Notes under the pieces: generated by a model
Seen by the model: the letters and a program-made list of their open reading frames with translations, nothing else
Databases searched by the model: none
Told to the model about the DNA's origin: nothing
NCBI RefSeq assembly: GCF_013368755.1
Contig: NC_049563.1
Location: forward strand, 5,828,001-5,892,000
Reading direction: 5' to 3'
DNA length: 64,000 nt
From: Talaromyces rugulosus
Lineage: Eukaryota; Ascomycota; Eurotiomycetes; Eurotiales; Trichocomaceae
Translations under genes and position numbers: made by a program
Shown here: in pieces, positions 23,556 through 64,000 of the stretch
How the letters are laid out: every line of letters starts with the position of its first letter
How positions within the stretch are numbered: position 1 is the first letter of the stretch

Positions 23556-23567
23556 AAACGCTTGCCC

Positions 23568-28986: not shown

Positions 28987-28997
28987 ATGCTTGTTGT
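28987..28997 (-). promoter_or_regulatory. Self-priming primer-binding site of B
   Basis: Two bases inside the 5' LTR the minus strand reads ACAACAAGCAT. Its exact complement ATGCTTGTTGT occurs in the LTR sense strand (29,067-29,057, and 23,333-23,323 in the other LTR). Tf1 of fission yeast primes cDNA with the first 11 nt of its own mRNA, and 11 nt is also the length of the match here. It predicts the transcript start at 29,067. No tRNA-type TGG site is present. Confidence 0.75.
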
Positions 28998-28999
28998 AA

Positions 29000-29273: not shown

Positions 29274-29850
29274 TTGCTAATTGTCTAAACTATGAGTAAA
29301 ATTGAGATCTTGACATCTTTGTGTGCGTGGCAAGATGATATTACAGCTATATGCATCTATAAAGGGAAGTCTATCTGTCCTATTCAGTGATGGGCATCTA
29401 AATCTAATTTTCTGACAAACTATCTAAATCAAGGATCTACTCCACTGCCAACGTCTGTGTAGAGTGAGAATTTATTAGAGATATGCTTAAGCTCTTTTCT
29501 ATATAACTTCTCGATTTAGAATATAGAGTAAAGGCACTTACTTTATCCTGTATTTTATTAATTATCATAGTTGACTTCCTATTATAGCTTTTTAAAATTA
29601 AAAGATAAGATATGTAGCTAGGACTTGTTCTAACTAAATATTTAAATTTTCTTTAGCTTAATCCCTTTATTTAAACAAAATATATTGAATCACTAAAGAA
29701 CTACATAATTTGATAAATAGAATATACTATATGCTAAGTTCTTACTCCTGCTATAAAGATTGAGACCAAGCCATTTTTGCTTGGGATTAAAAGACTTTTT
29801 ATTATAAGTTTTTTTACTCTGTTTATCTTTTTGTCTAGAGTAAGCTTTCT
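29274..29850. other. Non-coding DNA right of B
   Basis: AT-rich but not matching any gypsy relic in the window. No gene seen. It does not continue relic D, so the B insertion marks a breakpoint. Confidence 0.5.
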
Positions 29851-41922: not shown

Positions 41923-42723
41923 TAGAAAAGCAACCGACTAGTCCGTTGATTTTATTTTATTAACAAACGTTAGCATTATACTAGGCAAAAGAGAGTTAGT
42001 TGGTTTTTTTAATTCAACTAACTCCCCACACCCGTATTTATATTAGGGTAAAGGCTCAAATTTGGACTAGGGATATGTAACGCTGCTATTATCAATAGAA
42101 AAATAATTAACTAGTCTGTTAATTTTATTTTATTAACAAACGTTAGTGTTATGCTAGGTAAAAAAGAATTAGTTGGTTTTTTTAATTTAATTAACTTCCC
42201 ACACCCGCATTTATATTAGGGTAAAGGCTTAAATTTGGACTAGGGATATATGATACCACTATCAATATACAGTATCAGTTTGAGTGTATTTAACTGATTA
42301 GTTATTATTAATAGAAAAGCAACCAACTAGTCTATTAATTTTATTTTATTAATAAATATTAGTGTTATACTAGGTAAAAAAGAGTTAATTAGTTTTTTTA
42401 ATTTAATCAACTCCCTATATCCGCATTTATATTAAAGTAGAGGCTTAAATTTAGACTAGGAATATATAACACTGCTATTAATATACAGTATCAATTTAAG
42501 TATATTTAATTAATTAGCTATGTTATTATAAGTTATTGAAAATTGTTAGGGTTATATTTTAAGGTAGTTAGGATATAGAAATATTATACCTGATTAGGAC
42601 TATAATTATTATCTAAAATAGAAAAGTAATAAAAGTTTAAGGTTATTTTAATATAATTTTAGAGTTATTTTTATATCCTAGTTAAAAAGACCACCATCTA
42701 TTATTCAATGTATTCATAGAAAT
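41914..42723 (+). repeat. H-family leader with head repeated three times
   Basis: Three tandem copies of the H head start at 41,914 (173 bp), 42,087 (216 bp) and 42,303 (full leader to the ATG at 42,724). Each begins TATYATYAATAGAAAA and includes an inverted repeat around a T-run. They differ by transition-type changes, and the third is the most degraded. H2 has a single head. The leader holds TTAGGGTTA-type motifs in its GC-richer H2 version. Confidence 0.8.
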
Positions 42724-45700
42724 ATGATGATACTGAATATTGCATAGATATTATAATATAAGCCTAAATACTAGGTTATGATTTATTATTTATATTATTA
42801 AGTGGTATTAGATAGTCAATTAGATAAATATTTACATCAACCTGTATATTAAGCTGAGTGCTATGGCCAATATATATCATCATTCTGTGAATATTATAAC
42901 CAGTACTCTGAATATATATAATAGGCTATCCATATCATTATTTCCCACAAGCCCATTGCACGTATTGTGTTATTAGATGATCCCTAATATCCTATATACT
43001 AATGTTGTTATCCTAGATGCTATTTGGTAGTCAAGACAGTCATCTAGATTTAGTAGTATTATTATACCCAATATATATAGGAGAATTTCTAAATACATGG
43101 TCAACCCTATAAGTGTGCGATCCATGCCCCCAAACCCAATCATTTATAGTAGATTGTCTATAGTCAGCAATTCATATGCTATAGACCCAGGTCTTAATAG
43201 TTTGCTATTAATATTGACGCTACCAATAATCTAGTCCCTATACAGTCCAGTGAGCGGTTTCTATAAGATATGGCTGAGCAGGTTATAAAGTAGATGATTA
43301 TACAGCATAAATAGCAGATTGAAGAAGCTAAAAAGGTATACATTTAGGCTTATAAGCTATACAAGATGAATCTATGGATAGAATATATGGGATAGGCTAT
43401 ATATTTATTAGATAAGTACTAGGGGATATTATAGGCGTTATTAAACTAGCCAGATCCTAAGAAGAAACTAGTATTAGCTGAGATTAGAAAACAATTCACC
43501 TGGATTGTCATAGTGGTCCAGTGGACTATATTAATATAGTTAAATATATTTAGTCAGTATAAGATACACTAGAAATAGATAGATTAAATATCTAGTGTCC
43601 TGTTTTAGGCGTAAATAGATCCTAACATTATAGCAAAGTATTAGGACATGTAGTAGTATATGATTTGATATATTATATAGAATATATAGTAGTAGACTAT
43701 CTAGTTTCAGTTGATAATAGATTAGCAAACAGCTATAGAGTAGATGATTGAGGCTGTTATAAAGGAAGATAATGAGTCTATAGCCAGTAAAGACCTAATC
43801 AAAAAGACATAGGACCCAGCCAATCAACTATTAAGTCCTATAGATCAGATTATATTACAGTGGTGTATCAGTATATTAGATTATTAATTAGATAGTTAAG
43901 CTGAATATGAATACTATAGTGACATTATTAGTAGATTAGCTATTATAGGTATTAAAAAGCAGAATGGATAAGAGAGTACATTAACATCCATTTTCCAATT
44001 ATCCAGGATGATTAAGATTATATAGATGTTAATGGCCTAGTAGATATAGGAAGAGACAGCTGAGACCAAAGATTGTTTAAACCCATTATAGGCTATAGTA
44101 ATGTAGTTCATGACCACCATAGAGGCCATACCAATAAAGTAGATATTAGATACCCAGATATATAGATTAAAGATCCAGTACAACACCACTACCAACAGAT
44201 TAATGATATAGCAGGATGACTAGATCACATACTAGCATTACTGATTCACTATAGATCAGTTCTAGGAGACAGTATATAGATTGATTAACCAGACATAGAA
44301 GCATTTAACACAGGAGGTATTATTATTAACACTAGAGAAGGCTAAGTAGTTACTCTCTATTACATAAAACACTATAGAAGATAACGCGGCCAAGGACCAG
44401 TCTCAATAGTATTACACCCGGGATCCCTGTAATTGGTGGATATTAGACAACCAGTGGTAGTTATATCACCAGATTTAGAACATCCTTTGGTTGTGCTAGG
44501 AATAGATTCAGCTAGACAGGTAATGATGAGAGAGGTAGGTACAGTGGTAGATACAAGCCATTGGATAGAGTAAAGAATAGATGTTGGTATTGAAGCATTA
44601 GATGGGCGGTGGCCCTGGGTGAGGACCTGAGGTGTTGAGTATCTGATATCAGAATATCAAGTTTAGCGGTATCTGTAATTAATTTATTGAGAAAGAGTTG
44701 ATATTATTTATGGTGTTATATTATAAGGGGTATAGTATTAGTGGGTGGCTGAAGATCATTTATTGATATATATTGTAGTTAATAGGTAAGTTATTTATAT
44801 ATTTCCAGCAGTTGGTTATGCTATTCCAGTGGTATATTGAGACTATGGTGTATAGGTATCCCGAGCGGAGTGGGTTCATATGGCCACTGCAGGAGGTGGA
44901 TGGCCAGATATAGACGTCGGACCGCATGAAACGGGCTATGTAGTGGGAGAGCGAGATAGGTATGGGGGAGCAGTTGAACATTAGCGCGTATCAACAGATC
45001 ATAATTATGATTGCGCAGTAATATTTAGGGCCTATAGCTAGGTTTAAGGTTGATAATGATGAGAAGAAGGCCACCAAGAATAAAGATAGATGTTGATAGA
45101 TGGTAGAGGATGTGATAATTAACGTGTAGGCTGGGTATAGCAGTCATATTACTGAGAGGATATATGCCTAGAAGATGCATCAAACAGCTAGGATATTAGT
45201 GGTAATACAGAAGCAATTCCAGCAGACCAGTAAGCGATGGCACCAGTTTTTAGGATTCCCATTAACACAGGGAGCTGGAGGGAAGCATAGACAGTAGATT
45301 ACTAAGCAGAACCAGGTATAGCAGGTGGCCTATTAGCAGGTAATATGATAGGTAGCTATCCAGCTATTATTAATCTATATTAAAAGATCTATAGCATAGT
45401 TTTAAGATATGCAGGCGGCCGCTATTAAGACTATTATAGGCGGTGTACTGTGGATGTTAGTGGTGATAGACATCAGTAGAGGTAAGAGTATAATATTTAT
45501 AGTACTAGTAGTGTAGAAATAGACTGGTATATTGATTATAATGATATCTATGGTGTTATTACAGCAGAATATACAGTAAGAGTGTAAGCAGACTAAGATA
45601 TCATATGTATTATAGAATTCCTATTAACCGCCTGAGACTGTATATATTGTGTTAATAACACTTGAGTTAGCTATCAGTAAAGAATTTTGATCATATTTAG

Positions 45701-47095
45701 ATCAATTACAGGACTAGAACTGATTAAACTGGATTATGATTAATAAGTACCACATAATATTAGATAGCTAGGCGGATTTTCGACTTAAGATGTAGGAGTT
45801 ATTCTGGTTAATAACTATAGATACTTCTATAGTTATATTGATAGCAATGTTGCTAGTGGTTGATAAAGTCTGGTTGTTATAGACATTATAGTTAACATCT
45901 ATGATGATATAATAGTACTATAGTCTATATATAACATAGATAAATATTATATATTATATGAAGCTAATGGAGCTAGATAAAGTGGTATAGATAATATTTA
46001 TTCAATAGTGGGAGGCCTAATGGTATCTTTAGGGGGAGAAGGTGATCATTTACCATGAGTTGATGGGGGATGTTGATATGTTAGTAGTGATATTGGGGGT
46101 ATTGATATACTATAGATAAATGGCTAAGGTAGCTAAGTGGTGGATATTACAGATATTTAGCAAGATAGCTGGTGGGATCATAATCATGGCGATGAACGTA
46201 TTGGGGGTAGGTATTAATATCCTGGCTGTATAGTGCGTGATCCATATTAATATGCTGAGTATATTGTGGGATTACAGTTAGAAAAGCAGATATACTAGAC
46301 AGGATAGGCAGGATAGTAAAGTGATAATTATTGCGCTGCGGATGGCCCAAAGACACAGATAGGAACAGTAGAAACATAGACAGTAGGAAAGTAAAAAGAT
46401 AATACAGCAATATTTCCAGGAGTCAGGATATTAATAGATGGTATTAGATAGATATTTAGATTTATATAACCAGCGTAAGGGGTATATAGCTAGTAAGATG
46501 ATATATAATCAGTGTCAAGCACTAAGGCAGCTATCTATATCCAAACTAAGGTTAAAACTGGTATCAACAGCGTAGATAGTCCAGGAATAGTTAAAGCAGT
46601 GAATAGCCCAGTAGAGATAGTCCATATATACACAAGCGGCGATTGAGATCAATATATTAAAACAGCAATTGACAGTATAGACACAGCAATATCTTATATA
46701 TTTTATAACCACAGCAGATCCCCAGATATTCATACATCGGATTGAGCATTGCCAGTAGGCTAATATAGATGAAGTGCGGCAGGAGATTGCAACAATAATC
46801 TAAGTAATATATAATAAACAGAAATATACCCTATATTCATGTTATTTTCTATATAGCATCCCCCAGGCGGTATGCCAGTGGTTCGAGAACAACAGACAAA
46901 GCAGATAGCATATAATAGACAGATATAATTGCCAGTTTCCTGATATTATCATCCCCATAATATTTAGTATTATTAAATACAGGCCTAATGCATATATTAA
47001 TCCAGTATTAACATAGATGTATAATAATGGTGTTAATATCATCTATACAGACCAGATTAATATATAATTAAGACAGAAGATTCAATAGAATAAGA
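42724..47095 (+). pseudogene. H1: OrsD-like C2H2 plus RecQ-type helicase gene, RIP-degraded
   Basis: One frame (about 1,457 codons) can be followed from the ATG at 42,724 to the LINE. The start matches H2. A helicase core begins at about residue 895: AIKTIIGGVLWMLVVIDISR then GKS (motif I, from GTGGGKS), VLITLELAISKEF (motif Ia/Ib region), and INKYHIIL at motif II, where DECH is expected. The C-terminal part has CQWFENN and YRPNAYINPVLT. Stops are very frequent, always at positions explained by CAA/CAG/CGA/TGG changes. The intact family would be a large ATP-dependent DNA helicase of the telomere-linked type. The 3' end is lost at the LINE. Confidence 0.75.
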
Positions 47096-48817
47096 TATTA
47101 TTATTATTATTATTATTTAATCAAATTTAACGTCTATACCGAGCCCTAGGCTATGACAGACAGCGATTCGTGTGGATTAGGCCTGCTTATAGGGGTTGCC
47201 CCCCATAAGCCGGTGCCTCTACCCCCATTGGATCCAGGCTTTCAAGGTATCTTGCACTTTCCTCACCCCATGCCGCTTATATGCGCAGGACGATTCGGGG
47301 GCTTATAGTGGGTGGCAACCACTACCCCCTCCTTATGGCCACTAACGTTTGGGCGTTGCCTACAATAGCGGGCCGCCCCTGCCCGCTATCCTTCCCCCTC
47401 TCGCTCTCCCTCATCCAGGGCCTCAATGCCCCAATTATCAGTCTTATAGGCCTGCTCCCAGGCCTGTTGGTTATCCTCTCGCTCCCTAATGGCCCCTATA
47501 AACGCCAGCAGCGCTGTAGTGGCCTTTGGGTCCTGGAATAGGCGTGCTTCGGGGCACTGCTCGCTATCCTGCGGGGCCTTTACCCCCGCTTCGGCCAAGC
47601 CGGCATATAGTTTTTCCCGCTGGTGGCACCACTGTCGACAGTTTGTAAGAAGGTGTCTTACCGTCTCAGTCCCCCTAGAGCACCCCAAGCAATTAGGGGA
47701 GTCTCGGGCCTTGATTCGGTGCAGATAGGCCCCGATTGGGGTGTGGCCGGTCTTGAATTGGTAATACCGCCGCGCCAGGTGCTTGGGGGTGCTTGCCACT
47801 ATTGGGTCAAGCTTCCATCCCCGGGGGGGTTGGTAGGCCTGGCCTACCTGTTGGGTGCGTCTTGCAAGCTTTGCAGTGAGCCAGTTGGCCTTGATAGCGC
47901 TATAAGTCTCGGTGCATGCCCGCCGGGCATGGGCCAGTGAGATGCCTGAGTACTTGCCTGTACAGGGCCTCCCTGCAGCTTTCTTAGCGGCCTTATCGGC
48001 CTCCTCGTTGCCTGGGACCCCTTTATGGCCTGGCACCCAGCATATGGTAACCCTGCGGCCGGTGGCCTGTAGTTCCCCGGCTAGGTCGTGTGCCCGCAGC
48101 GCTAGGGCTTGCCCTGGGCCAGGCCGGGTATGCTGGAGCCTGCTTATAGCGGCCTGGGCGTCTAAAAACACCCTAATTGGCCCTATAAGATTCTCTGCCA
48201 GCGCCCACTCTAGGGCTTCGACTACTCCTATTAGTTCTGCATCAAAGACTTCGAAGCCTGCGCCCAGGGGAGCTAGGCGCGACCTCCAGGGGCCAATAAG
48301 TGGCTTATAAGCTACTGCAGCGCCTACGCGCTGATCGTCTAACCTAGAACCGTCTGAGTAAAGGTCGGTGTTCCCTATCCCACTTAGGGGGTCTGAGGCT
48401 AATTGCATAGCGGTTTCAGGGGAGTCTATCCTGAAATCTAGTGGTATAGACCTATTACCAGGCTCTATTGTACGCTCAAAGCCCTGGGAGGGGTCGGCGG
48501 TCAAGGCCTCTCGTAGCCTGCGGGCCAGGCCCATGCCCAGCTTCCAGGGGCCTCGGCGGGTTGGTGTTGCCCAAGCTCGGTCTTCTAGTGGCTGCTCTCC
48601 AGGCTGTGCATGGGCGTCTCCCTCCCTAAGCGTTATAGGGAGTATTTCTGCTGCTGGATGCCCCTGGGGAAGTCCTAGGAGTCTCAGGGCATACCGCCGC
48701 TGTTTACTATCTAATAGGGCCTCTGCTGGTTCCAGAGCTGCCTCCCTTATAAGCGGTCCTAACGGGGTGGACTTCAGCATGCCTGTGACTGCCCGGGCCT
48801 GGTTATTAATTAGGCCC
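47096..48817 (-). mobile_element. Second LINE copy, 5'-truncated, minus strand
   Basis: Same family as 16,071-19,109. The (TTA)n tail at 47,096-47,116 abuts H1, and the other end stops at GGGCC, corresponding to about 17,391 of the first copy. There the H2 head begins. No target duplication can be recognised. Not RIP-mutated. Confidence 0.85.
47386..48817 (-). CDS. LINE ORF2 C-terminal fragment: RNase H and CCHC
   Basis: Open from the truncation at 48,817 to the stop at 47,386; the first Met is at 48,780. It holds the end of the RT connection, the complete RNase H (LYSDGS, FDAELIGVVEALEWAL, LDAQAAI, VPGHKGVPGNEEAD) and the zinc motif (CLGC, HLLTNC). Compared with the first copy there are scattered amino-acid changes (e.g. 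around RRTQQVGQAYQPP). It lacks the RT catalytic YADD and cannot act alone. Confidence 0.8.
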
Positions 48818-49238
48818 TATCATCAATGGAAAAGCAACCGACTAGTCCGTTGATTTTATTTTGTTAACAAACGTTAGCGTCGTGCTAGGCAAAAGGGAGT
48901 CGGTTGGTTTTTTTAATTCAACCGACTCCCCACGCCCGCATTTATATTAGGGTAGAGGCTCAAATTTGGACCAGGGATATGTGACGCCGCTATCAATATA
49001 CAGTATCAGTTTGAGCGCATTTAACCGATTAGCTATGTTGTTACAAGTTATTGAAAATCGTTAGGGTTATATTTTGAGGTGGTTAGGGTACGGAAGCGTT
49101 ATACCCGATTAGGACCACAACCATTACCCAAAGTAGAAAAGTGATAAAAGTTTAAGGTTATTTTAGCGTGATTTTAGAGTTGTTTTCATGTCCCGGTCAG
49201 GGGGACCACCATCCATCATTCAATGCATTCGTAGAAAC
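48818..49238 (+). promoter_or_regulatory. H2 leader, single head
   Basis: It starts TATCATCAATGG directly after the truncated LINE. It contains a perfect 10-bp inverted repeat, GAGTCGGTTG and CAACCGACTC, around a T-rich loop. CAACCGACT also occurs near its start. TTAGGGTTA lies at 49,061-49,069 and TTAGGGT at 49,083-49,089. It leads to the ATG at 49,239. Confidence 0.6.
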
Positions 49239-49651
49239 ATGGCGATGCCGAATATTGCACAGATATTGCAGTACGAGCCCAAATACCGGGTTATGATTTG
49301 TTGTTTATGTCACTAGGTGGTATTAGATGGTCAATTGGACGAACATTTACGTCGACCCGCACATCAGGCTGAGCGCCATGGCCAATATATATCATCATTC
49401 TGTAAGTATTATAACCAGTACCCTGAATGCATGTAACAGGCTATCCACATCACTATTCCCCGCAAGCCCATTGCACGTATTGTGTTATTAGATGATCCCT
49501 AATATCCCATATACCAATGTCGTTATCCCAGGTGCCATTTGGTGGTCAAGATGGTCACCCGGATCCAGCAGTATTGTTGTACCCAACATGCATGGGAGAA
49601 TTCCCAAGTACACGGTCGATCCCGTAAGCGTGCGATCCATGCTCCTAAACC
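49239..49651 (+). pseudogene. H2: 3'-truncated OrsD-like N-terminal fragment
   Basis: It reads MAMPNIAQILQYEPKYRVMI followed by CCLCH, then a stop, VVLDGQLDEHLRRPAHQAE, and later YQCRYPRCHLVVK and YCCTQHAWEN. This is the paired zinc-finger arrangement of OrsD (DUF3505) proteins. In-frame TAG/TAA codons stand where Gln is likely. It is cut at 49,651, where the G1 head begins. Much less AT-rich than H1. Confidence 0.7.
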
Positions 49652-49698
49652 TAACCAAAATACCTGAGTGTAGTGAACTATACTACAATCACAAACTC
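49652..49698 (+). repeat. G1 head: one 47-bp unit
   Basis: A single unit starting TAACCAAAATACCTGAG and ending CAATCACAAACTC, preceded by CC. Fewer copies than in the younger G heads. Confidence 0.85.
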
Positions 49699-50108
49699 TA
49701 TTTTAGGGTTATTTTTGCTAGTTAAATCTAGGATTAGTGTCATAGACTACAATCACAAACTTTTATAGACTACAATCAGGTTTTGTCGCCTGATCGCCCT
49801 CAAAATTAGACTAGTTATTTTCATACCATTAAATCGCTCGTCACCAAAGAATAAGCAATATTCAAGTTATCATACTGCTGTCATGGTTAATTGAAAAGGA
49901 CAGGTTTTTCAGGTTGTTTTGGTTGGAGTGCGACAGGCGCTAGTGGCCAGGATATATCACATACACGCCATGACGGATCGTCAGGGATTCCAACGTATTA
50001 GGGCATGGTTATATATAATCATATATTGTCCATACTACAGATTATCATTATCATTATAGATAGCATTAGTATTTATCACATTTACCAGAGCAATTTATTA
50101 TTATCATT
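49699..50108 (+). promoter_or_regulatory. G1 leader
   Basis: Corresponds to the G4 leader with transition changes (TCTAGGATTAG for TCTAGGGTTAG). It ends at the former start codon. Confidence 0.6.
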
Positions 50109-53100
50109 ATATATAACATATTTTTCGAGCAACTAGAGGAGTTTCCTATTATGATATGCCGGGAGTATCGCCATACTATATGGCCCAGCCAGATTGAAAC
50201 GCATTTACATCACACACACCATTATATGTCTACCACCATGCGCGTCACATTGGCCGATGATGTTCGTACATAGCCCAACATCACGCATAATCCAATCGAG
50301 TTGAATATCCTAGCCACCCAGACTACAGTGATCCAACAGTTAGTCGCGCCCATTGATAGATATCAATATTAATTAAGTTCCCATTCGTGCCAATACATAT
50401 ACACTACTATACCCACCATACAATAACATTGGATCAAGCATCATCAATGGTCCCGGACCTAAAAGATCAGACAGTCTATCCACATAGAGTAGAAACAGAT
50501 TTAGCATAAGCAGGACCAGGCATGCCATTCTATTCAATGCCAGCAGTTATTTCCTGTCAAGGCTAACTCGCAGTATTTTGCAATTATTCCCAAGACGGAT
50601 AAAGCTGTGGCCCCCAACAGTGATGCGTGCGAGATGTTAATCCAGAACATGCAGGCGCATTGGCGCAGCATGCAGAAGGCCGCAGATCGGAAGATCCAGA
50701 CCAGCTAGATCAACAAGGCCAACCCGTGGTTACAGCGAACCAAGTAGGTAAAGTATTTAGAAGAGTTCAATATCCCTGATTTAATACAGAGTGTAAGCCC
50801 ACCCCCCACAGATATTGATGGCCAGCCATCTATCAAGCCAGAAGCCCACGCCATTTGGACGGTCATAGCGCAGTTAGCCACAATCAGCTAGTTGTCCGTG
50901 ATTCACCAGATTGGGATATTTATGCAGTTAGAAGCTATCCAGACTAAGCAGCATCAGACACAGTATACCCCGTTAGAGGCGTATTAGGATAAGAAGTTAA
51001 TCATAAAGCAGGTGCAGCCATGGCAGGAGATATTAATGTTTTTTTAGTATACGCAGCAGCCACATAAATAGACCAGTCCTCTGTATTAATTCACACAACA
51101 ACAGCACATGGCATAGGAACGGTTGGTTGACACAGTGCAGATTCCATCTACCTATTAGGTAAGCAAGGGTAAGGTGATCACACAATCCAGGGCCACACAG
51201 ACACCATGGGTGGAGGAAGAGGAGGAAGAGGAGGAGGAGGAGAAAAAAGAGAAGAAGGAGGAGGAAAAGAAGGAGGAGAAGGAAGAAAAGAAGGAGGAGA
51301 AGAGAGACACTATATCAATTAATTCATTGTCTATAGATAGCAACGAACCCGATTTTTTCAATGATAGGAGTGACGGGATAGAGAAGACGATGGAGAAGAC
51401 AGCCATAGAGAGAACAGTTGATATGGATGCTATATTTGATATTGAGCGCCCCCCAGAGAATAAGGAAGAAGCCAGCAACATTACTATGCCGCCATTAAGC
51501 CCCATAGAGCAGGCGTGTTTAGATTTTTGCATCGAATTATTGAACCAGCGCATCACCCAACAGGAGTACGACAGCGCATTAGTGTGTGCCATAGCCGTAT
51601 TAGGGGTTCATAAGAACAGTTTCCGTACACCCAAGAATTACCCGCCCATTTTATCGCGAGTGATCAAGGTCGCGCGGTTCATAGTAGTAAAGAAAGCCAT
51701 CGAATTAAGTAACAAGCCTAAGGAGGAGGATGCGGCCAAGTTACCCAGTTCTATAGACCACACGGATTGGGACAGCACATATGGTGGATCACTGCTACCC
51801 AGTTCGCCAGGCCGCAAAGGATGTTTGTAATGGGTGACCCAGATGATAAATCAGTTCATGGTGCGCAGATCGCAAGGCCCCACACAATAGATGTTGGATT
51901 TGCGCACATATAGGTTGAAGATCCATTACAATACAACCAGCGCCGGCCATATACAGTAACAGAATAAGAACAAGTTATGTTATAAGGACCGGCAGTTTAC
52001 TATAAATAAGTTTCATAGTATAGTACACACAGTAGTCTAGAACACGCGGCGGATATTGATTAATAACATATTAGGATACCTATCTGACGCTGTACCAGCT
52101 ATTCTATAGGACTGTTTGTATAATGATCCCAGCAATAACTAGGTATAATAGAGTTTTTTACAGGACACCTAAACGTAATAGCCCATAGATAGGAAGTATT
52201 AGATGTGGCATCAAATCCGTCAAGATCTAGCTATACAGCATCAATTCATCCAGGCTAACAGGCAAGGGTTTTATCCGGCATGATGGATAGCGTATTAGAA
52301 CCGGATTACTGCGTTTTTAAAAAAGTTATTAGTAGCTATCCAGTTCATATAGGATCAACCAGCGTGGGCCTCTAAGTTATTAAGCATCCAGCATAAGAAC
52401 AGTCCTATAGGTGGGATCCGTAATATGTTTATCAAGGATAGCATAATAGTATTAGTCGCACAGTACCACAAAGATTACTAATTAAGCGGCGACGTTAAGA
52501 TCATCTATCAATATTTACCACGCGAGATAGGTAAGTTATTAGTATGGTATTTATAGTTAGTGTAGCTATTCAAACAGGTAGTCAGTGGAAATATATATCA
52601 ATAGGACTAGGTGTCTAGCTATATTTGGACCGTCTACCTACACCAAACAAAATAGAATTCCGAATGATTACGACACATATTGCAGCATAAGAGTGCCATG
52701 GGATTACACAGTTAATCATTGCACATTGCATCATATCGTAAGGTTGTAATTGCCATCAATCAGCAGTATTTACACAATAAATATTAATTTACAGCAGATA
52801 ATAGAGACGACCCCAAGACTATAGACAAGATACAATTATTGGCCGATGCCGCCAATTATTAGGCTGAGCATGATCCACACACAGCTAGTAGCATATACGC
52901 TCAGGAGAGCTACGAGTTGTTTAGCACTATAGCGTCTATACAAGAACAATATCATAGTAGCAATCAAGATTAGCATACATAGTTAAGATTTGCATCATAC
53001 TAGCCACCATCCGACCTAGATACCGATCCATTTAGCGCGCCCCCAGCATCCAGCACATTATGGTTCACGGACAAGGCACAGCACAGCTGGGAGGAACGGT

Positions 53101-55108
53101 GACAGCGGATACAGCGTATAGATGTTGACCAGACGTTGCGCGATATGATGGGACTAGATGCTGCATTTCGCGGGCCACAGAAGCAGATTGTGCAGGCTGT
53201 GATCCAAGGACAGAGCCTGGTCATCGGCATAATGCCTATTGGTGGTGGCAAGAGTTTGTTGTTCATGTTGCCGGTATAGATGGTCCATGGTGGCATAATG
53301 GTTGTTATCATCCTATTAGTGTTGTTACGAGATGATTTACAGTATTGATACGCGGAATTAGATATTCAATATATCGTATGGAACAACTAGTAACCCATTA
53401 ATGATATATTGATTATGTTAATTACGCCCGAGTCCGCCATACATAACGAAACATTCAGCATATTTTTAAACCACAAGTAGTTCACTAATCAATTAGATTA
53501 GATCATAATCGATAAATACTATATCGTATTACACGACCAGTACAATTTCTACAAGTCAATAACACAGTTAGGGTAGTTGGTCTGATACCGTGCCCTTATA
53601 TTATTATTAACAGTGACAATGTCCTGAGAGAACAAAAAGCAATTGTGCCAGCAAATATATTTTCTCCCCAACACTATATATTGAATCCACACACATACCA
53701 GTCATCACAACATTACATATTAGATGGTCTGTATTGCGCAGCCACAGGAACATAGCCAACATAGTAACATAGAAACAGCTATTATGGCGTAGATTAAATA
53801 AAAGATCCCATAATATTTATCTAGCAAGGTAATAGTATACATCAACAGCCAGCACTAGACAAAGCAGGTTATAGAGGCATTAAAATACAGTATATATCAT
53901 TCCCACATAATTAATTGAGCCAGGATATTGAGCACATTCTAACAGACGCCTAATAGCATTATCATAGCCACTAGTACATTAGACATAGATATTAATATCC
54001 CCAACATCTAGTATATAATCCACATTAAGCATCCCCAATCATTGTTAAATTATATCTAGGAGAGTAGACATACCAGGCAAGATAGGCAGAGCAGCACAAT
54101 AATGATGGTTTTGAACAATAGTGATAGTGGATAGAGAGACCCAGTGACCAATCAAGATACGGGATTATTATGGGCATTAGAGCAGATACAACAGTATATT
54201 AATCAGCTATATCAACAAGGCGTGTTTGATCTATATTTAGATAGAGAAGTAAATAGATATTAGCGACAGTAATACGAGAAGAGTAAAGCGGCGTATAATA
54301 GATATTATATAGTAACTATACTAATTAAGATACAGACCACATCACTAATTATACAAAGTGAGACTCTAGCCATATTATTAGCTAGGCGGGTTCAGATCTA
54401 AGCCAGATCACCAGTCCCAGCACTGGCGCGGTCCCCAAAATAAAAGTTAAGCAAGGTATTCACCATGGTGACAATGCCGCATACCCAACAGAGAAGATAT
54501 AATAAGCTATGAGAGCAATTACGATCACACATCAAGCGTGAGGCGCGAATGGTGGATTCCATCTGGGAGCATTTTGACCAATGGGTGGGACAATACTGGA
54601 TTTATACAATACACGAGGCATCCAGCAAGCATTTCACGTATCAATGTCCCCAGGCCAAAGGCCAACAGGTAGCAGCGTGGATTGAGGAGACCATCTGCAA
54701 GGTGACTAGGAATCAACACAAAGATGGGAGGAACGGGTATGAGGATTATGCGGTATGTTTTCAGTGCCATTCACCATAGTAGATATGTCTATGATAGGTT
54801 CGTGTCAATTATAGTAGATATCAGCGTACCAAAAAAACATATCGATATTTAGAGACGACGGCACACACTATAGCACAGTTGTTGCATAGACCGATGCGGA
54901 AGATGATCTAGCCAGCATGGAAGCAGCGGTTGGCGCAGATACCCAGAGGAGGGGTCCCCTATAAGAACCAGACCGCGTTGATTCGTTATTTTCAGTGGAA
55001 GTTTAGAAAACGTGAAGAAGAGCGTAGTGGGTTGGTAGAAGAGATAACATGGATGTGTTTATGGGTCGACGATACGATGCAGGTAGATATTAAGAGCAGT
55101 GAGGATTC
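50109..55108 (+). pseudogene. G1: nearly full OrsD-C2H2 / poly-Glu / RecQ helicase gene, RIP-inactivated
   Basis: One frame of about 1,666 codons with no indel that I could detect. The start ATG is now ATA, and the second Cys of the first finger is Tyr (TAT). The poly-Glu stretch has turned partly to Lys (51,211-51,305). At residues 1045-1049 the Walker A is intact (MPIGGGKSLLFMLP), preceded by FRGPQKQIVQAVIQGQS. Motif II reads IIDKYYIVL where a DECH-type box is expected. Motifs V/VI follow (ATSTLDIDINIPN, ESRHTRQDRQ). The C-terminal part has CPQAKGQQVAAW and CFQCHSP, a second zinc-like pair. It is truncated at 55,108. It shows what the unseen part of G4 should contain. Confidence 0.85.
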
Positions 55109-55202
55109 TAACCAAAATACCTGAGTGTAGTGAACTGTACTACAATCACAAACTCTAACCAAAATACCTGAGTGTAGTGAACTGTACTACAATCACAAAC
55201 TC
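55109..55202 (+). repeat. G2 head: two 47-bp units
   Basis: Units at 55,109-55,155 and 55,156-55,202, identical to each other and to those of G3 and G4 by eye. Preceded by a single C (GGATTC). Confidence 0.9.
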
Positions 55203-55612
55203 TATTTTAGGGTTATTTTTGCTAGTTAAATCTAGGGTTAGTGTCATAGACTACAATCACGAACTTTTGTAGACTACAATCAGGTTTTGTCGCCTGATCG
55301 CCCTCAAAATTGGACCAGTTATTTTCATACCATTAAATCGCTCGTCACCGGAGAATGAGCGATATTCAAGTTATCGTGCCGCTGTCGTGGTTAATTGAAA
55401 AGGACGGGTTTTTCAGGTTGTTTTGGTTGGGGTGCGACGGGCGCTAGTGGCCAGGATATATCGCGTGCGCGCCATGACGGATCGTCAGGGGTTCTGACGT
55501 ATTAGGGCATGGTTATATATAATCATATATTGTCCATACTACAGATTACCATTACTATTATAGATAGCATTAGTATTTATCACATTTACCAGGGCAATTC
55601 ATTATTATCATC
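55203..55612 (+). promoter_or_regulatory. G2 leader
   Basis: Very close to the G4 leader; holds TTAGGGTTA and TAGGGTTAG, and a TATATATAATC box about 100 nt before the ATG. Confidence 0.6.
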
Positions 55613-57345
55613 ATGTATAACACGTTTTTCGAGTAACTAGAGGAGTTTCCTATTGTGGTATGCCGGGAGTGTCGCCATGCCGTGTGGCCTAGCTAGATTG
55701 AAACGCATTTGCGTTGCGCGCACCGTTATGTGTCTACTATCATGTGCGTCACATTGGCCGATGATGTTTGTACATGGCCTAATATCGCGCATGATCTGAT
55801 TGAGTTGAATATCCCGGCTATCCGGACCATAGTGATCCAACAGTTGGTCGCGTTTGTTGATGGATATTGATGTCAATTGAGTTCCTATTCGTGCTAATAT
55901 ATATGCACTACCATGCCTATTATGTGGCAGTATTGGATCAAGCATTATCAGTGGTCCTGGATCTGAAAGATTGGACAGCCTACCCACATGGAGCAGAAAC
56001 AGATTCAGTATGAGCAGGATTAGGCATGCTGTCCCGTTCAATGCCAGCGGTTGTTTCCTGTTAAGGCCAACTCGCAGTATTTTGCGATTATTCCCGAGAC
56101 GGATGAAGCTGTGGCCCCCGATGGTGATGCGTGCGAGACGTTAATCTAGAATATGCAGGCGCATTGGCGCAGCGTGCAGGAGGCCGCGGATCGGAAGATC
56201 CAGGCTGGCCAGGTCGACGAGGCCAACCCGTGGTTACGGCGAACCGAGTGGGTGAAGTATTTGGGGGAGTTCGACATCCCCGATTTGATATAGAGTGTGA
56301 GCCTACCCCCCGCGGATATCGATGGCCAGCCGTCTATTGAGCCGGAAGCCCACGCCATTTGGACGGCTATGGCGTGGTTGGCTACGATCAGCCAGTTGTC
56401 CGTGATTCACCAGATTGGGGTGTTTGTGCGGTTGGAAGCCATCTGGACTGAGCAGCATTAGACGCGGTACACCCTGTTAGAGGCGTATTAGGATGAGGAG
56501 TTAATTGTGAAGCAGGTGCGGCCGTGGTAGGAGATGTTGATGTTTTTTTGGCGTACGCAGCAGCTGTACGAGTGGACCAGTCCTTTGTATCGATTTATGC
56601 GACGACAGCGTATGGTATGGGAGCGGTTGGTTGACGCGGTGCGGATTCCACCCATCTGCTAGGTGAGCAAGGGTAAGGTGATCATGCGATCCGGGGCCAC
56701 GCGGGCACCGTGGGTGGAGGAAGAGGAGGAAGAGGAGGGGGAGGAGGAGGAGGAGGAGGAGGAGGAGAGAGATACCATGTTGATTGATTCGTTGTCCGTG
56801 GACAGTAACGAACCCGATTTTTTCAATGATAGGAGTGACGGGATAGAGAAGACGATGGAGGAGACGGCTATGGGGAGAACGGTTGATGTGGATGCTATAT
56901 TTGATATTGAGCGCCCCCCGGAGAATGAGGAGGAAGCCAGTAATATCACTGTGCCGCCATTGAGCCCTGTGGAGCGGGTGTGTTTGGATTTTTGCATTGA
57001 ATTGTTGAACCAGCGCATCATTTGATGGGAGTATGACAGCGCATTAGTGTGTGCCGCAGCTGTATTGGGGGTTTGTGAGGGCGGTTTCCGTACGCCCGAG
57101 GATTACTCGCCTATTTTATCGCGAGTGATCAAGGTCGCGCGGTTCATGGTGGTGAAGAAAGCCGTTGAATTGAGTGACGAGCCCGAGGAGGAGGATGTGG
57201 CTGAGTTGCCCAGTTCCATGGACTATACGGATTGGGACAGCGTATATGGTGGATCGCCGCTACCTAGTTCGCCAGGCCGCAAAGGATGTTTGCAGTGGGT
57301 GACCTAGATGATGGATTGGTTCATGGTGCGCGGATCGCAAGGCCC
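55613..57345 (+). pseudogene. G2: 3'-truncated copy of the G gene (577 codons)
   Basis: ATG at 55,613 and first stop at codon 8 (TAA for CAA). It is otherwise close to G4 and less mutated than G3. It includes both zinc-finger regions, the short poly-Glu with one Gly, and the segment [10 protein letters not shown]. It is cut after GGCCC at 57,345. It has no helicase domain. Stops and Trp/Gln losses rule out a product. Confidence 0.85.
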
Positions 57346-57486
57346 TAACCAAAATACCTGAGTGTAGTGAACTGTACTACAATCACAAACTCTAACCAAA
57401 ATACCTGAGTGTAGTGAACTGTACTACAATCACAAACTCTAACCAAAATACCTGAGTGTAGTGAACTGTACTACAATCACAAACTC
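57346..57486 (+). repeat. G3 head: three 47-bp units
   Basis: Units at 57,346, 57,393 and 57,440. Joined to G2 as CCCTAACC, a telomere-like octamer. Confidence 0.9.
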
Positions 57487-57896
57487 TATTTTAGGGTTAT
57501 TTTTGCTAGTTAAATCTAGGGTTAGTGTCATAGACTACAATCACAAACTTTTATAGACTACAATCAGGTTTTGTCGCCTGATCGCCCTCAAAATTAAACC
57601 AGTTATTTTCATACCATTAAATCGCTCGTCACCGGAGAATGAGCGATATTCAAGTTATCATACCGTTGTTGTGGTTAATTAAAAAGGACAGGTTTTTCAG
57701 GTTGTTTTGGTTGGGGTACGACAGGCGCTAGTGGCCAGGATATATCACGTGCGCGCCATGACAGATCGTCAGGGGTTCCAACGTATTAGGACATAGTTAT
57801 ATATAATTATATATTGTCTATACTACAGATTACCATTACCATTATAGATAGCATTAGTATTTATCACATTTACCAAAGCAATTCATTATTATCATC
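57487..57896 (+). promoter_or_regulatory. G3 leader
   Basis: As in G4 with scattered transitions; TTAGGGTTA and TAGGGTTAG are kept. Confidence 0.6.
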
Positions 57897-60598
57897 ATGT
57901 ATAACACGTTTTTCGAGCAACTAGAGGAGTTTCTTATTATGGTATGCCGGGAGTGTCGCTATGCCATGTGGCCCAGCCAGATTGAAACGCATTTGCGTCG
58001 CGTGCACCGTTATATGTCCACCACCATGCGCATCACATTGACCGATGATGTTTGTACATGGCCTAACATCGCGCATGATCTGATTGAGTTGAATATCCTG
58101 GTCACCTGGACCACAGTGATCTAACAGTTGGTCGTGCCTGTTGATGGATATCGATGTTAATTGAGTTCCTATTCGTGCCAATATATATGCACTACTATGC
58201 CTATTATGTGGCAGCATTGGATTAAGCATCATCAGTGGTCCCGGACCTGAAAGATTGGATAGCCCACCTACATGGAGCAGAAACAGATTCAGCACGAGCA
58301 GGACCAGGTATGCTGTTCTGTTCAATGCCAGCGGTTGTTTCCCGTCAAGGCTAACTCGCAGTATTTTGCGATTATTCCTGAGATGGATGAAGCTGTGGCC
58401 CCCGACGGTGATGTGTGTGAGATGTTAATCTAGAATATGCAGGCGCATTGGCGCAGCGTGTAGGAGGCTGCGGATCGGAAGATTTAGGCTGGCCAGGTTG
58501 ATGAGGCCAACCCGTGGTTATGGTGAACCGAGTGGGTGAAGTATTTGGGGGAGTTCAACATCTCTGATTTGATATAGAGTGTGAGCTTACCTCCTGCGGA
58601 TATTGATGGCCAGCCATCTATTGAGCTGGAAGCCCACGCTATTTGGACGGCTATGGTGTGGTTGGCCATGATCAGCCAGTTGTCCGTGATTCACCAGATT
58701 GGGGTGTTTGTGTGGTTGGAAGTTATCTGGATTGAGCAGCATCAGACGCGGTACACTCTGTTAGAGGTGTACCAGGATGAGGAGTTAATTGTGAAGCAGG
58801 TGTGGCTGTGGCAGGAGATGTTGATGTTTTTTTGGCGTACACAGCAGCCGCACGAGTGGACTAGTCCCTCGTATCGATTCACGCGACGACAGCGCATGGC
58901 ATGGGAGCGGTTGGTCGACGTGGTGTGGATTCCACCCACCCGCCAGGTGAGCAAGGGTAAGGTGATCACGCGATCCGGGGCCACGCGGGTACCGTGGGTG
59001 GAGGAAGAGGAGGAAGAGGAGGAGGAGGAGGAGGAGGAGGAGGAGGAGGAGGAGGAGGAGGAGGAGGAGGAGGAGGAGGAGGAGGAGAGAGACACCATGT
59101 CGATTGATTCGTTGTCTGTGGACAGCAACGAACCCGATTTTTTCAATGATAGGAGTGACGGGATAGAGAAGACGATGGAGGAGATAGCTATAGGGAGAAC
59201 AGTTAATATGGATGCCATATTTGATATTGAGCGCCCCCCGGAGAATGAGGAGGAAGCCAGCAACATCACCATGCCACCATTGAGCCCCATAGAGCGGGCG
59301 TGTTTGGATTTTTGCATCGAATTGTTGAACCAGCGCATTACTCGACAGGAGTACAATAGTGTATTAGTGTGTGCCGTAGCTGTATTAGGAGTTCGTGAGG
59401 GTGGTTTCCATATACCTGAGGATTACCCATCTATTTTATCGCGAGTGATCAAGGTCGCGCGGTTCATGGTAGTGAAGAAAGCCGTCGAATTGAGTGACGA
59501 GCCTAAGGAGGAGGATATAGCTGAGTTGCCCAGTTCTATGGACTACATAGATTGGGACAGCGTATATAGTAGATCACCGCCACCTAGTTCGCCAGGCCGC
59601 AAAGGATGTTTGTAGTGGGTGACCCAGATGATGGATCAGTTTATGGTGCGTGGATCGCAAGGCCCCATATAATGGATGTTGGATTTGCGTATATATGGAT
59701 TAAAGATTTATTACAATATGACCAGCACCGGCTATGTATAGTAGTAGAATGGGGATGAGTTATATTATAAGGACTGGCAGTTTACTATGAATAAGTTTCG
59801 TGGCATGGTGTATATGGTGGTCTAGGATATGTGGCAGATATTGATCAATAATATATTAGGATGCCCGTCTGATGCTGTACTAGCTATTCTATAGGACTGT
59901 TTGTATGACGACCCCAGTAATAACTAGATATGATAGAGTTTTTTACAGGACATCTAAACGCAATGGCCTGTGGATAGGGAGCATTGGATATGGTATCGAA
60001 TCTGTTAGGACCTAGCTGTACAGCGTCGATTCATCTAGGCTGATAGGCAAGGGTTTTATCTGGCATGATGGATGGCGTATCAGAACCGGATTACTGTGTT
60101 TTTAGAGAAGTTGTTAGTGGCTATCTAGTTTATATAGGGTCAACCGGCGCAGGCTTCTGAGTTGTTGAGCATCCGGCATAAGAACAGTCCCATGGGTGGG
60201 ATCCGTAATATATTTATCAAGGATGGCATGGTGGTATTGGTCGTGCAGTACCACAAGGGTTATTAATTGAGCGGCGACGTTAAGATTATCCATCGATATT
60301 TACCACGCGAGGTGGGTGAGTTATTAGTGTGGTATTTATGGTTGGTGCAGCCGTTCGAGCAGGTGGTTAGTGGAAATATATATCAATGGGACTAGGTGTC
60401 CAGCTATATTTGGACTGCCCACCTACACCAAGTGAAATGGAATTCCAAACGATTACGATATATATTGCAGCGCGAGAGTGCTATGGGATTGTGTGGTTAA
60501 TTATTGCATATTGTATTATATTATGAGGTTGTGATTGTTATCAGCTGGCGGTATTTACGCAACAAATATCGATTTGTGGTGGATGATGGAGACGACCC
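57897..60598 (+). pseudogene. G3: 3'-truncated copy of the G gene (900 codons), expanded poly-Glu
   Basis: ATG at 57,897, with intact first finger ligands CREC and HLRRVH. In-frame stops appear after codon 75 and elsewhere. One open part, 58,581-59,615, carries a (GAG)n-encoded Glu tract about three times longer than in G2 or G4. Transition damage is intermediate between G2 and G1. It is cut at GACGACCC, 60,598, before the helicase core. Confidence 0.85.
59003..59092 (+). repeat. Expanded (GAG)n microsatellite in G3
   Basis: A run of about thirty GAG/GAA codons. The corresponding tracts in G2 and G4 have about 17 codons interrupted by one GGG. Confidence 0.9.
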
Positions 60599-60692
60599 TA
60601 ACCAAAATACCTGAGTGTAGTGAACTGTACTACAATCACAAACTCTAACCAAAATACCTGAGTGTAGTGAACTGTACTACAATCACAAACTC
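60599..60692 (+). repeat. G4 head: two 47-bp units
   Basis: Units at 60,599-60,645 and 60,646-60,692. The junction with G3 reads CCCTAACC (60,596-60,603). Confidence 0.9.
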
Positions 60693-61102
60693 TATTTTAG
60701 GGTTATTTTTGCTAGTTAAATCTAGGGTTAGTGTCATAGACTACAATCACGAACTTTTGTAGACTACAATCAGGTTTTGTCGCCTGATCGCCCTCAAAAT
60801 TGGACCAGTTATTTTCATACCATTAAATCGCTCGTCACCGGAGAATGAGCGATATTCAAGTTATCGTGCCGCTGTCGTGGTTAATTGAAAAGGACGGGTT
60901 TTTCAGGTTGTTTTGGTTGGGGTGCGACGGGCGCTAGTGGCCAGGATATATCGCGTGCGCGCCATGACGGATCGTCAGGGGTTCCGACGTATTAGGGCAT
61001 GGTTATATATAATCATATATTGTCCATACTACAGATTACCATTACCATTATAGATAGCATTAGTATTTATCACATTTACCAGGGCAATTCATTATTATCA
61101 TC
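60693..61102 (+). promoter_or_regulatory. G4 leader and probable promoter
   Basis: Contains TTAGGGTTA (60,697-60,705) and TAGGGTTAG (60,723-60,731), both fragments of the fungal telomere repeat. Two further CTACAATCA copies are added to those in the 47-bp units. A TATA-like TTATATATAATC near 61,003-61,014 lies about 90 nt before the ATG. Regulatory roles are inferred. Confidence 0.55.
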
Positions 61103-64000
61103 ATGTATAACACGTTTTTCGAGCAACTAGAGGAGTTTCCCATTGTGGTATGCCGGGAGTGTCGCCATGCCGTGTGGCCCAGCCAGATTGAAACGCATTT
61201 GCGTCGCGCGCACCGTTATGTGTCCACCACCATGCGCGTCACATTGGCCGATGATGTTCGTACATGGCCCAACATCGCGCATGACCCGATCGAGTTGAAT
61301 ATCCCGGCCACCCGGACCACAGCGATCCAACAGTTGGTCGCGCCCGTTGATGGATATCGATGTCAATTGAGTTCCCATTCGTGCCAATACATATGCACTA
61401 CCATGCCCACCATGCGGCAGCATTGGATCAAGCATCATCAGTGGTCCCGGACCCGAAAGATCGGACAGCCCACCCACATGGAGCAGAAACAGATTCAGCA
61501 CGAGCAGGACCAGGCATGCCGTCCCGTTCAATGCCAGCGGTTGTTTCCCGTCAAGGCCAACTCGCAGTATTTTGCGATTATTCCCGAGACGGATGAAGCC
61601 GTGGCCCCCGACGGTGATGCGTGCGAGACGTTAATCCAGAACATGCAGGCGCATTGGCGCAGCGTGCAGGAGGCCGCGGATCGGAAGATCCAGGCCGGCC
61701 AGGTCGACGAGGCCAACCCGTGGTTACGGCGAACCGAGTGGGTGAAGTATTTGGGGGAGTTCGACATCCCCGATTTGATACAGAGTGTGAGCCCACCCCC
61801 CGCGGATATCGACGGCCAGCCGTCCATCGAGCCGGAAGCCCACGCCATTTGGACGGCCATGGCGCGGTTGGCCACGATCAGCCAGTTGTCCGTGATTCAC
61901 CAGATTGGGGTGTTTGTGCGGTTGGAAGCCATCCGGACCGAGCAGCATCAGACGCGGTACACCCCGTTAGAGGCGTACCAGGATGAGGAGTCAATCGTGA
62001 AGCAGGTGCGGCCGTGGCAGGAGATGTTGATGTTTTTTTGGCGTACGCAGCAGCCGCACGAGTGGACCAGTCCCCCGTATCGATTCACGCGACGACAGCG
62101 CATGGCATGGGAGCGGTTGGTCGACGCGGTGCGGATTCCACCCACCCGCCAGGTGAGCAAGGGTAAGGTGATCACGCGATCCGGGGCCACGCGGGCACCG
62201 TGGGTGGAGGAAGAGGAGGAAGAGGAGGGGGAGGAGGAGGAGGAGGAGGAGGAGGAGAGAGACACCATGTCGATTGATTCGTTGTCCGTGGACAGCAACG
62301 AACCCGATTTTTTCAATGATAGGAGTGACGGGATAGAGAAGACGATGGAGGAGACGGCCATGGGGAGAACGGTTGATGTGGATGCCATATTTGATATTGA
62401 GCGCCCCCCGGAGAATGAGGAGGAAGCCAGCAACATCACCGTGCCGCCATTGAGCCCCGTGGAGCGGGCGTGTTTGGATTTTTGCATCGAATTGTTGAAC
62501 CAGCGCATCACCCGACGGGAGTACGACAGCGCATTAGTGTGTGCCGCAGCCGTATTGGGGGTTCGTGAGGGCGGTTTCCGTACGCCCGAGGATTACCCGC
62601 CCATTTTATCGCGAGTGATCAAGGTCGCGCGGTTCATGGTGGTGAAGAAAGCCGTCGAATTGAGTGACGAGCCCGAGGAGGAGGATGCGGCCGAGTTGCC
62701 CAGTTCCATGGACCACACGGATTGGGACAGCGCATATGGTGGATCGCCGCCACCCAGTTCGCCAGGCCGCAAAGGATGTTTGCAGTGGGTGACCCAGATG
62801 ATGGATCGGTTCATGGTGCGCGGATCGCAAGGCCCCACGCAATGGATGTTGGATTTGCGCACATATGGGTTGAAGATCCATTACAACACGACCAGCGCCG
62901 GCCATGTACAGTGGCAGAATGGGGACGAGTTATGTTATAAGGACCGGCAGTTCACCATGAATGAGTTTCGTGGCATGGTGCACGCGGTGGTCCAGGACGC
63001 GCGGCGGATATTGATCGACGACATATTAGGATGCCCGTCCGACGCCGTGCCAGCCATTCCATGGGACCGTTTGTATGACGACCCCAGCAATAACCAGGCA
63101 CGATGGAGTTTTTTACAGGACACCCGAACGCAATGGCCCGTGGATGGGGAGCATTGGATGTGGCATCGAATCCGTCAGGACCCAGCCGTGCGGCGTCGAT
63201 TCATCCAGGCCGACGGGCAAGGGTTTCATCCGGCGCGATGGATGGCGTATCAGAACCGGATCACTGCGTTTTTAGAGAAGTTGTTGGTGGCCATCCAGTT
63301 CACATGGGGTCAACCGGCGCGGGCCCCCGAGTTGTTGAGCATCCGGCACGAGAACAGTCCCATGGGTGGGATCCGTAATATGTTTATCGAGGATGGCATG
63401 GTGGTATTGGTCGCGCAGTACCACAAGGGTTACCAATTGAGCGGCGACGTTAAGATCATCCATCGATATTTACCACGCGAGGTGGGTGAGTTATTAGTGT
63501 GGTATTTGTGGTTGGTGCAGCCGTTCGAGCGGGTGGTCAGTGGAAATATATATCAACGGGACCAGGTGTCCAGCCATATTTGGACCGCCCACCCACACCA
63601 AGCGAAATGGAATTCCGAACGATTACGACACATATTGCAGCGCGAGAGTGCCATGGGATTGCGCGGTCAATCATTGCACATTGCATCATATCGTGAGGTT
63701 GCGATTGCCATCAGCCGGCGGTATTTACGCAACAAATATCGATTTGCGGCGGATGATGGAGACGACCCCGAGGCCATGGACGAGGTGCAATTGTTGGCCG
63801 ATGCCGCCGATCGTCAGGCCGGGCATGATCCACACACGGCCGGTGGCATATACGCCCGGGAGAGCCGCGAGTTGTTTGGCGCCATGGCGTCCATGCGAGA
63901 ACGATATCGTGGTAGCAGTCAGGATTGGCATACATGGTTAGGGTTTGCATCATGCCAGCCGCCGTCCGACCCGGATGCCGATCCATTTAGCGCGCCCCCA
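61103..64000 (+). CDS. G4: intact OrsD-C2H2 / RecQ-type helicase gene, N-terminal 966 codons (continues beyond window)
   Basis: I translated 61,103-64,000 and found no stop. The first C2H2 finger has ligands C17, C20, H32 and H37 ([20 protein letters not shown]). The second region is C87, C94 and C98 with H107, H111 and H112 ([23 protein letters not shown]). This is the OrsD/DUF3505 layout. A Gln/Asp/Trp-rich middle follows, then poly-Glu at about 369-386 and an acidic stretch ([18 protein letters not shown]). A long region follows that contains [20 protein letters not shown] and [18 protein letters not shown]. It ends at [11 protein letters not shown]. By alignment with G1 the helicase Walker A lies about 80 codons past the window edge. 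The copy is GC-rich, free of RIP damage, and likely expressed. Exact family name and activity are inferred. Confidence 0.85.

Follow-up and report, generated by a model that had tools for sequence, protein, structure and literature searches.

The right end of one Talaromyces rugulosus chromosome, analyzed here as a window of 64,000 nucleotides (C3:5828001-5892000, in a genome of 35.76 Mb in six contigs, C1 to C6), carries a head-to-tail array of a repeat that encodes a telomere-linked helicase (TLH). We consider it probable that this repeat is a one-ended, telomere-terminated mobile element of a recombinase/helicase type, the enzymology of which we infer. Its copies join other DNA at a fixed head base and at a Y/CY(R) target (the slash marks the junction; Y is a pyrimidine and R a purine), terminal arrays have lost the DNA distal to their cuts, and copying has proceeded from both live and dead heads. 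The pattern of the array is far beyond chance, since all 53 of the head junctions found in the fetched stretches fall at an identical base.

The terminal array and its element

The array consists of four copies in the same orientation, G1 to G4 (Table 1; element coordinate 1 is window position 60597), as a first-pass annotation of the window had described, except that the first head starts at 49651 and not at 49652. Other details of that description held as well. There is no spacer at the breaks: each following head begins at the cut, and the 14 bases to its left are free of the telomere hexamer. The order of decay is G1 > G3 > G2 > G4, with identities to G4 of 83.5% for G1, 89.9% for G3, and 95.0% for G2, and all transitions relative to G4 are of the type made by repeat-induced point mutation (RIP), the ratio of C>T/G>A to reverse changes being 867:0 in G1, 112:0 in G2, and 287:0 in G3. 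The cut of G1 reads GAGGATT/CCAATT in the intact copy and lies a few codons short of the end of the open reading frame (ORF). G4 is indeed intact, having an ORF of 1,661 amino acids and its 3' region in the next 4.2 kb. A search rightward of the window for TTAGGG, which the annotation had proposed, found that G4 ends directly in (TTAGGG)n at the end of the contig, so that the array is subterminal. The 3' region of the element contains 37-bp tandem repeats (at about 5957 to 6344 in stretch-local coordinates), and several degenerate TTAGGG-TTACCAATGATGGTGC blocks precede the telomere in its last 1.5 kb.

The same 7.5-kb TLH element is outermost, reads outward, and is followed by telomere repeats at all 11 readable chromosome ends (six right and five left); the sole unreadable end is C4 left, where the first 3,000 bases are N throughout. 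Genome searches, which scored the best 40 of 42 candidates for DNA and the best 28 of 90 for protein and therefore give lower bounds for copy number, returned at least 32 protein matches, all near contig ends and oriented toward the nearer end, and at least 66 DNA matches with the same placement and orientation, the innermost lying about 160 kb inward. Six of the terminal copies encode an identical protein in a single open frame, those of C1 left, C1 right, and C6 right have five stop codons each, and those of C2 right and C4 right have a one-frame match limited to the later part. A GGA microsatellite at 62206 to 62257 of the window, found at the same place in G1 to G3, encodes a glutamate run in the TLH gene and varies in length by copy; this variation may explain the restricted match at C2 right and C4 right. 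Terminal copies at eight ends, four right (full length) and four left (first 2 kb), are without RIP marks, which implies that the element spread recently.

All joins begin at one head base

All 53 distinct head joins found in the stretches that were fetched begin at the same base, Y/CTAACC, and start with CTAACCAAAATACC or a C>T/G>A-changed form of it. Tabulation of what precedes the heads, a check suggested in the first-pass annotation, gave C in 34 cases, T in 19, and A or G in none. Exact TTAGGG or CCCTAA was absent from the 14 bases to the left of all 53 joins and was present within 40 bases in 2 of them. Independent left flanks that are not part of the element number 18, all ending in a pyrimidine. 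The C6 left junction at 27042 lies in a partial 47-bp unit beside other repeat DNA and is counted among the 53 joins and not among the 18 flanks, while the place on C4 at 5330582, which is a two-sided head patch, is counted in both. In a separate reading by BLAST of the six right terminal arrays, from which high-scoring segment pairs (HSPs) of 120 columns or fewer were dropped, none of 23 segments begins mid-element and all begin at a head.

The head itself is built of 47-bp units. The unit boundary ACT/CTATTT at element position 95 is itself a YCYR site; the motif ACTACAATCA occurs four times in the first 180 bases of the head, with a mismatched inverted copy in each 47-bp unit.

The target is a short motif

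Read in the intact copy, the 16 in-element truncation sites fit Y/CY in every case and Y/CYR in 15. The background frequency of Y/CY in the whole element is 216 of 7,528 positions (2.9%), giving a binomial P of about 2e-25, and shifting the site by one to five bases leaves Y/CY at only 0 or 1 of the 16. The C1 left junction at 7920 is not exactly placeable in the element and stands outside the 16 sites. Sites 5620 and 5657 fall at the same place of the 37-bp repeat and may represent one event. Site 196 occurs nine times, perhaps as a hotspot or through shared descent. Head and target overlap by 1 to 3 bases (C, CT, or CTA).

Empty sites gave a similar picture. Uncut paralogues, from a second TLH family, were available for 7 of the 18 flanks; with RIP transitions allowed, C followed by Y was found in all seven groups and R as the third base in six (in this comparison some paralogue ends were shifted by hand to the junction, by 1 to 31 bases and with no gaps). 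At the left border of the array, for example, the G1 join reads AAAC/CTAACC and its uncut paralogue in the window reads AAAC/CCAATC (Table 1). From the joins of the other TLH families (see below), the target core shared by the families is CYR, apart from site 196, and the preceding Y belongs to family 1, that of the array element, only.

One alternative is that the host repairs broken or eroded ends by microhomology-mediated break-induced replication from TLH ends, with the TLH protein being a bystander or contributing only as a helicase. Break-induced replication does yield non-reciprocal replacement to the telomere, the overlaps at the joins are only 1 to 3 bases, head patches in an old copy on C4 (see below) resemble template switching, and there is a precedent in Magnaporthe arrays, for which passages of PMC7367193 describe microhomology-type end repair. 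However, the donor starts at one base in 53 of 53 joins even though the whole element offers homology, the target motif mostly has just C in common with the head, and three TLH families are present, each with a head beginning (C)TA. We therefore regard host repair as an unlikely explanation.

The first-pass annotation had offered, as one of two options, repeated loss of a chromosome end followed by capping with a new copy. The replacement of an old end by a new copy stands, but passive capping of random breaks is insufficient to account for the fixed head base and the YCY(R) target. Its suspicion that the joining of heads to breaks may be a distinct mechanism was supported.

Chromosome ends are overwritten from live and dead heads

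RIP-type changes could be used as labels, as each of five reference stubs contained at most 1 reverse change. Stubs sharing a cut recur at several ends, and their identity spans the last head unit to the cut while their left neighbors are unrelated. The cut-2238 stubs, represented in the window by G2, show 0 differences in 2,190 positions among two places on C1 right and C3, the one on C4 right differs at 2 positions, and C5 left carries cut 2238 too. Similarly, there are 0 differences in 3,973 positions between the cut-3982 stubs of C2 and C4, 0 in 1,319 between the cut-1367 stubs of C4 and C5, and 0 in 3,159 between the cut-3171 stubs of C3 (G3) and C5 right, with one 3-bp gap distinguishing that of C4 right. 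C3 left has cut 3171 with a different RIP set, in which 42 of 139 G3 marks are in common over the part read; it either preserves the same cut in an older copy or records a second hit.

C3 and C5 have in common a suffix of 10,688 bp, made up of the G3 stub and the intact element as far as the telomere; the two versions align with 1 gap and 0 mismatches. The suffix starts at CTAACC, which lies beside second-family DNA on C5 and within the unit array, again at this base, on C3. Homologous exchange among TLH copies alone, shuffling one ancient junction set, would be consistent with recurrent truncation points and with terminal recombinants that carry 39 mutations. It cannot, however, make joins of 18 different non-element flanks to the same head base, nor can it start identity exactly at the head base beside unrelated DNA. 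As a sole cause it is already contradicted by these joins and identity starts, and we give it virtually no credence.

All RIP marks of the stubs cut at 873 and 1367 belong to the G2 lineage, and all those of the stubs cut at 387 and 2004 to the G3 lineage; dead stubs have therefore been cut again and re-capped. No remainder of a cut copy lies further out in the 23 segments, which disfavors two-sided insertion and favors a non-reciprocal replacement of the arm end. Chromosome ends in the terminal arrays are thus overwritten non-reciprocally, the lost distal DNA giving way to the donor sequence from its head out to its telomere, and the donor may be any head, whether live or RIP-dead.

These observations bear on the second option of the first-pass annotation, namely, that 3'-truncated copies were inserted just before an existing head. 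In an explicit form of this idea, excised stub circles would be re-inserted before heads by a Crypton-like recombinase, in keeping with the recurrence of short stubs as exact units, with the recombinase fold predicted below, and with the one old two-sided head patch. With such insertion, however, the remainder of the cut copy should follow the insert, and none of the 23 right-array segments starts mid-element; the RIP-marked stubs 873, 1367, 387, and 2004 were moreover cut again later, and the C3/C5 stub is held in common together with its distal neighbor to the telomere. The insertion option was accordingly dropped, and we regard re-insertion of circles as very unlikely.

The TLH protein contains a predicted tyrosine-recombinase domain

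The TLH protein has an OrsD domain at residues 6 to 113 (Pfam; E, 3.4e-22) and a RecQ-type helicase at residues 994 to 1345 (DEAD and Helicase_C), for which the best PDB matches are RecQ and Bloom helicases (E, about 1e-30). Its closest named relative is a Talaromyces marneffei protein with 62% identity over the region searched. Between OrsD and RecQ, at about residues 600 to 917, structure prediction gives the catalytic fold of a tyrosine recombinase, and we treat this region as a candidate domain. Putative catalytic residues R740, K775, R864, H908, and Y917, whose roles were assigned by position, are conserved in 118 to 120 of the 120 rows of an alignment (rows of >350 residues, query included, from 137 domain hits). 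Pfam gave no match to an HUH nuclease, residues 114 to 520 being without a fold test.

Pfam and PDB searches gave no reverse transcriptase match in the 1,661-amino-acid protein either. This result bears on the possibility that head-initiated transcripts were reverse transcribed onto broken ends, the head base being a transcription start. A fixed 5' base with tandem 5' units does recall the promoters of long interspersed nuclear elements (LINEs). The lack of a reverse transcriptase match in the protein and the extent of the piece copied between C3 and C5, which takes in a stub and then the terminal element as far as the telomere, make such retrotransposition barely plausible.

A model for one-ended movement

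In the model that we propose, the inner end of the element would be a fixed DNA end, the head, with CTAACC first, and the outer end would be the chromosome terminus. The element's own protein would perform the joins. OrsD may bind the head via the repeated ACTACAATCA motif, and the tyrosine recombinase would cut both the head and a CYR site of loose specificity and exchange one strand over the overlap C(T)(A) of 1 to 3 bp, after which the donor arm would be copied to its end by the RecQ helicase together with host replication. Because the donor arm would be copied to its end, the exchange would be non-reciprocal, amounting to a recombinase-started break-induced replication. Each round would leave one 3'-truncated stub and repeated rounds would produce a head-to-tail array, while hits at the first YCYR site in the head (ACT/CTATTT) would generate the 47-bp tandem units.

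A number of observations weigh against this model. The best Foldseek E values for the candidate domain are weak (0.018 and 0.038), PDB sequence searches, Pfam, and single-sequence phmmer gave no recombinase match, and the box-II histidine typical of tyrosine recombinases is not conserved in the alignment. No cleavage or mobility was observed. The final R of the target is absent at 1 of the 16 in-element sites (196) and in one of the seven empty-site groups; the base before CYR is G in two family-2 joins and A in one family-3 join. The search that yielded the 53 joins needed a complete 47-bp unit, which 5'-cut heads would escape, and the left ends were read only in part. Ordinary homologous exchange is also seen: 39 G2-lineage RIP marks identify the terminal copies of C1 left, C1 right, and C6 right as recombinants of a dead stub and a live copy. 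The evidence that several neighbors were copied together to the telomere comes from one pair of ends (C3/C5). An old decayed copy on C4, near 5330580, contains about 41 bp of head, from CTAACC after T, followed by its own distal part; a second short head patch follows in the same copy, from element position about 115, again with its own distal part after it. The C4 patches fall at stretch-local 5540 to 5780, and the one from CTAACC may be an aborted or template-switched event, still begun at the head base. On C1, at 7254362, a decayed headless 3' piece (element positions 6808 to 7527, stretch-local 1363 to 2093) lies about 25 bp before a family-2 head. The C4 and C1 exceptions are older and lie outside the terminal arrays.

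Relationship to known telomere-associated elements

Having a RecQ-type helicase, adjoining the telomere at 11 of 12 ends, and possessing OrsD, the array element is a TLH. As with S. pombe tlh1-4, Ustilago UTASa, Magnaporthe TLH, and Fusarium TLHcr, a RecQ gene adjoins the telomere at several ends, in full and truncated copies. TLHs were thus the right comparison in the first-pass annotation, and G4 is a TLH gene itself, not merely a parallel to one. Passages of PMC10532341 describe how UTASb segments bearing OrsD are placed in Ustilago, either close to telomeres or 5' of UTASa, and an excerpt of PMC7840980 calls the function of TLH proteins not clarified. The portions of published TLH descriptions considered here treat them as subtelomeric genes and mention no fixed head base, target motif, head-started end replacement, or recombinase domain. 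Among open PubMed Central papers we found none that links fungal TLH with a tyrosine recombinase.

Several other systems have features in common with the array. The Y' elements of budding yeast are helicase-coding subterminal repeats that spread between ends, by homologous recombination and with telomere repeats between copies, whereas the joins described here use a fixed base and lack telomere repeats. Cryptons and Starships are fungal mobile elements that have a tyrosine recombinase and two ends and that keep both flanks. Here, in contrast, one end is the telomere and the distal flank is absent in the 23 segments of the six terminal arrays, with a single exception, the old two-sided patch of some 41 bp of head. 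Integron integrase acting on secondary sites and the one-ended transposition of IS91 and Helitrons join a defined site to loose sites, with resolution by replication. The joining of one defined site to loosely specified sites is a point of likeness, but no cassette or circle was seen here, Pfam gave no HUH nuclease match, and the product is a whole arm end. Finally, MoTeR, FoTeR, and telomeric LINEs are telomere-bound mobile elements that form arrays with truncated copies, as here. Sections of PMC12857005 and PMC7367193 describe elements of the MoTeR/FoTeR type as coding for reverse transcriptase and as retaining telomere repeats at a border of their truncated copies. The element described here differs in its 3' truncation, in having no reverse transcriptase match, and in the absence of the telomere hexamer at its joins.

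The TLH gene family itself has been known for decades, as helicases of the subtelomere with an unclear function; the kind of mobile element that it would represent appears to be unrecognized. We somewhat favor the broader view that TLH genes encode the transposases of a mobile-element class of their own: fusions of tyrosine recombinase and RecQ that have a single DNA end, the telomere serving as the other, and that would overwrite arm ends site-specifically and non-reciprocally, mobilize dead relatives in trans, keep a presence at every end, and incidentally provide the host with telomere healing. What would extend this view beyond the present genome is the protein family. TLH genes occur at the chromosome ends of many fungi, and with a predicted recombinase domain, a short target motif, and a fixed head to work from, the question of TLH function becomes testable. 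If the broader view is correct, it would define a mobile-element class outside the cut-and-paste, rolling-circle, and retro types, help to account for the likeness of chromosome ends within one genome, and supply an enzyme with which the replacement of a chromosome arm could be initiated at a chosen base. The RIP-labeled stubs constitute a readable history of past end replacements.

Other TLH families and neighboring features

The second TLH family has 24 to 31% protein identity and its own head. In the window it is represented by a stub directly to the left of G1 and by a longer copy (Table 1), which is preceded by two short family-2 head stubs at 41913 (173 bp) and 42086 (216 bp), ending at G/CTATCAA and G/CTATGTT, respectively. 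A third head variant cuts family 1 at A/CTACC on C5 and at site 196 on C2. On C5 right it forms a row of four with 173-bp spacing (stretch-local 1816 to 2335), short head stubs like those of families 1 and 2.

Table 1. Positions of the TLH array and adjoining features, in window coordinates
Feature	Position	Strand	Description
Longer family-2 TLH copy	42302..47088	+	Protein similarity 43831-46332, about 24-28% identity to G4
LINE fragment (RNase H)	47089..48816	-	Right side cut by family-2 head at 48816/48817
Family-2 stub	48817..49650	+	Head C/TATCATCAATGG; cut by G1 head; empty-site paralogue 43135/43136
G1	49651..55107	+	1 head unit; family 1, with RIP mutations; cut 5466 (element coordinate)
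G2 (RIP lineage P1)	55108..57344	+	2 head units; cut 2238, AAGGCC/CCACGC, 577 codons
G3 (RIP lineage P2)	57345..60597	+	3 head units; cut 3171, ACGACC/CCGAGG, about 890 codons
G4, terminal element	60598..64000	+	ORF from 61103; about 4.1 kb more outside window, then (TTAGGG)n
Head units of G4	60598..60691	+	Two 47-bp units, CTAACCAAAATACC...CAAACT
First 966 codons of the 1,661-amino-acid TLH protein	61103..64000	+	OrsD and predicted tyrosine-recombinase domain; RecQ beyond window

The remaining repeats of the window were compared after HSPs of 60 or fewer columns had been dropped, as was done for the family-2 stub. The segment between the two family-2 copies was at first considered as a DNA transposon, which was dropped as it is a LINE fragment, a 95% inverted copy of DNA from a LINE whose ORF, with reverse transcriptase and RNase H, lies at 16070 to 18820. 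An uncut copy of this LINE segment, at 17388 to 19118 on the plus strand, gives the empty site of the family-2 head as ATTAGGCC/CTGCAG. The reverse order of events, insertion of the LINE beside the family-2 head, was rejected because the DNA to the left of the LINE tail does not, by eye, repeat the head. Two long terminal repeat (LTR) retrotransposons, at 6803 to 12798 and 23265 to 29274, are 78% alike, the second being of the Ty3 type by Pfam. The 276-bp LTRs of the latter are 100% identical, and this element is therefore young; it sits beside heavily RIP-mutated DNA.

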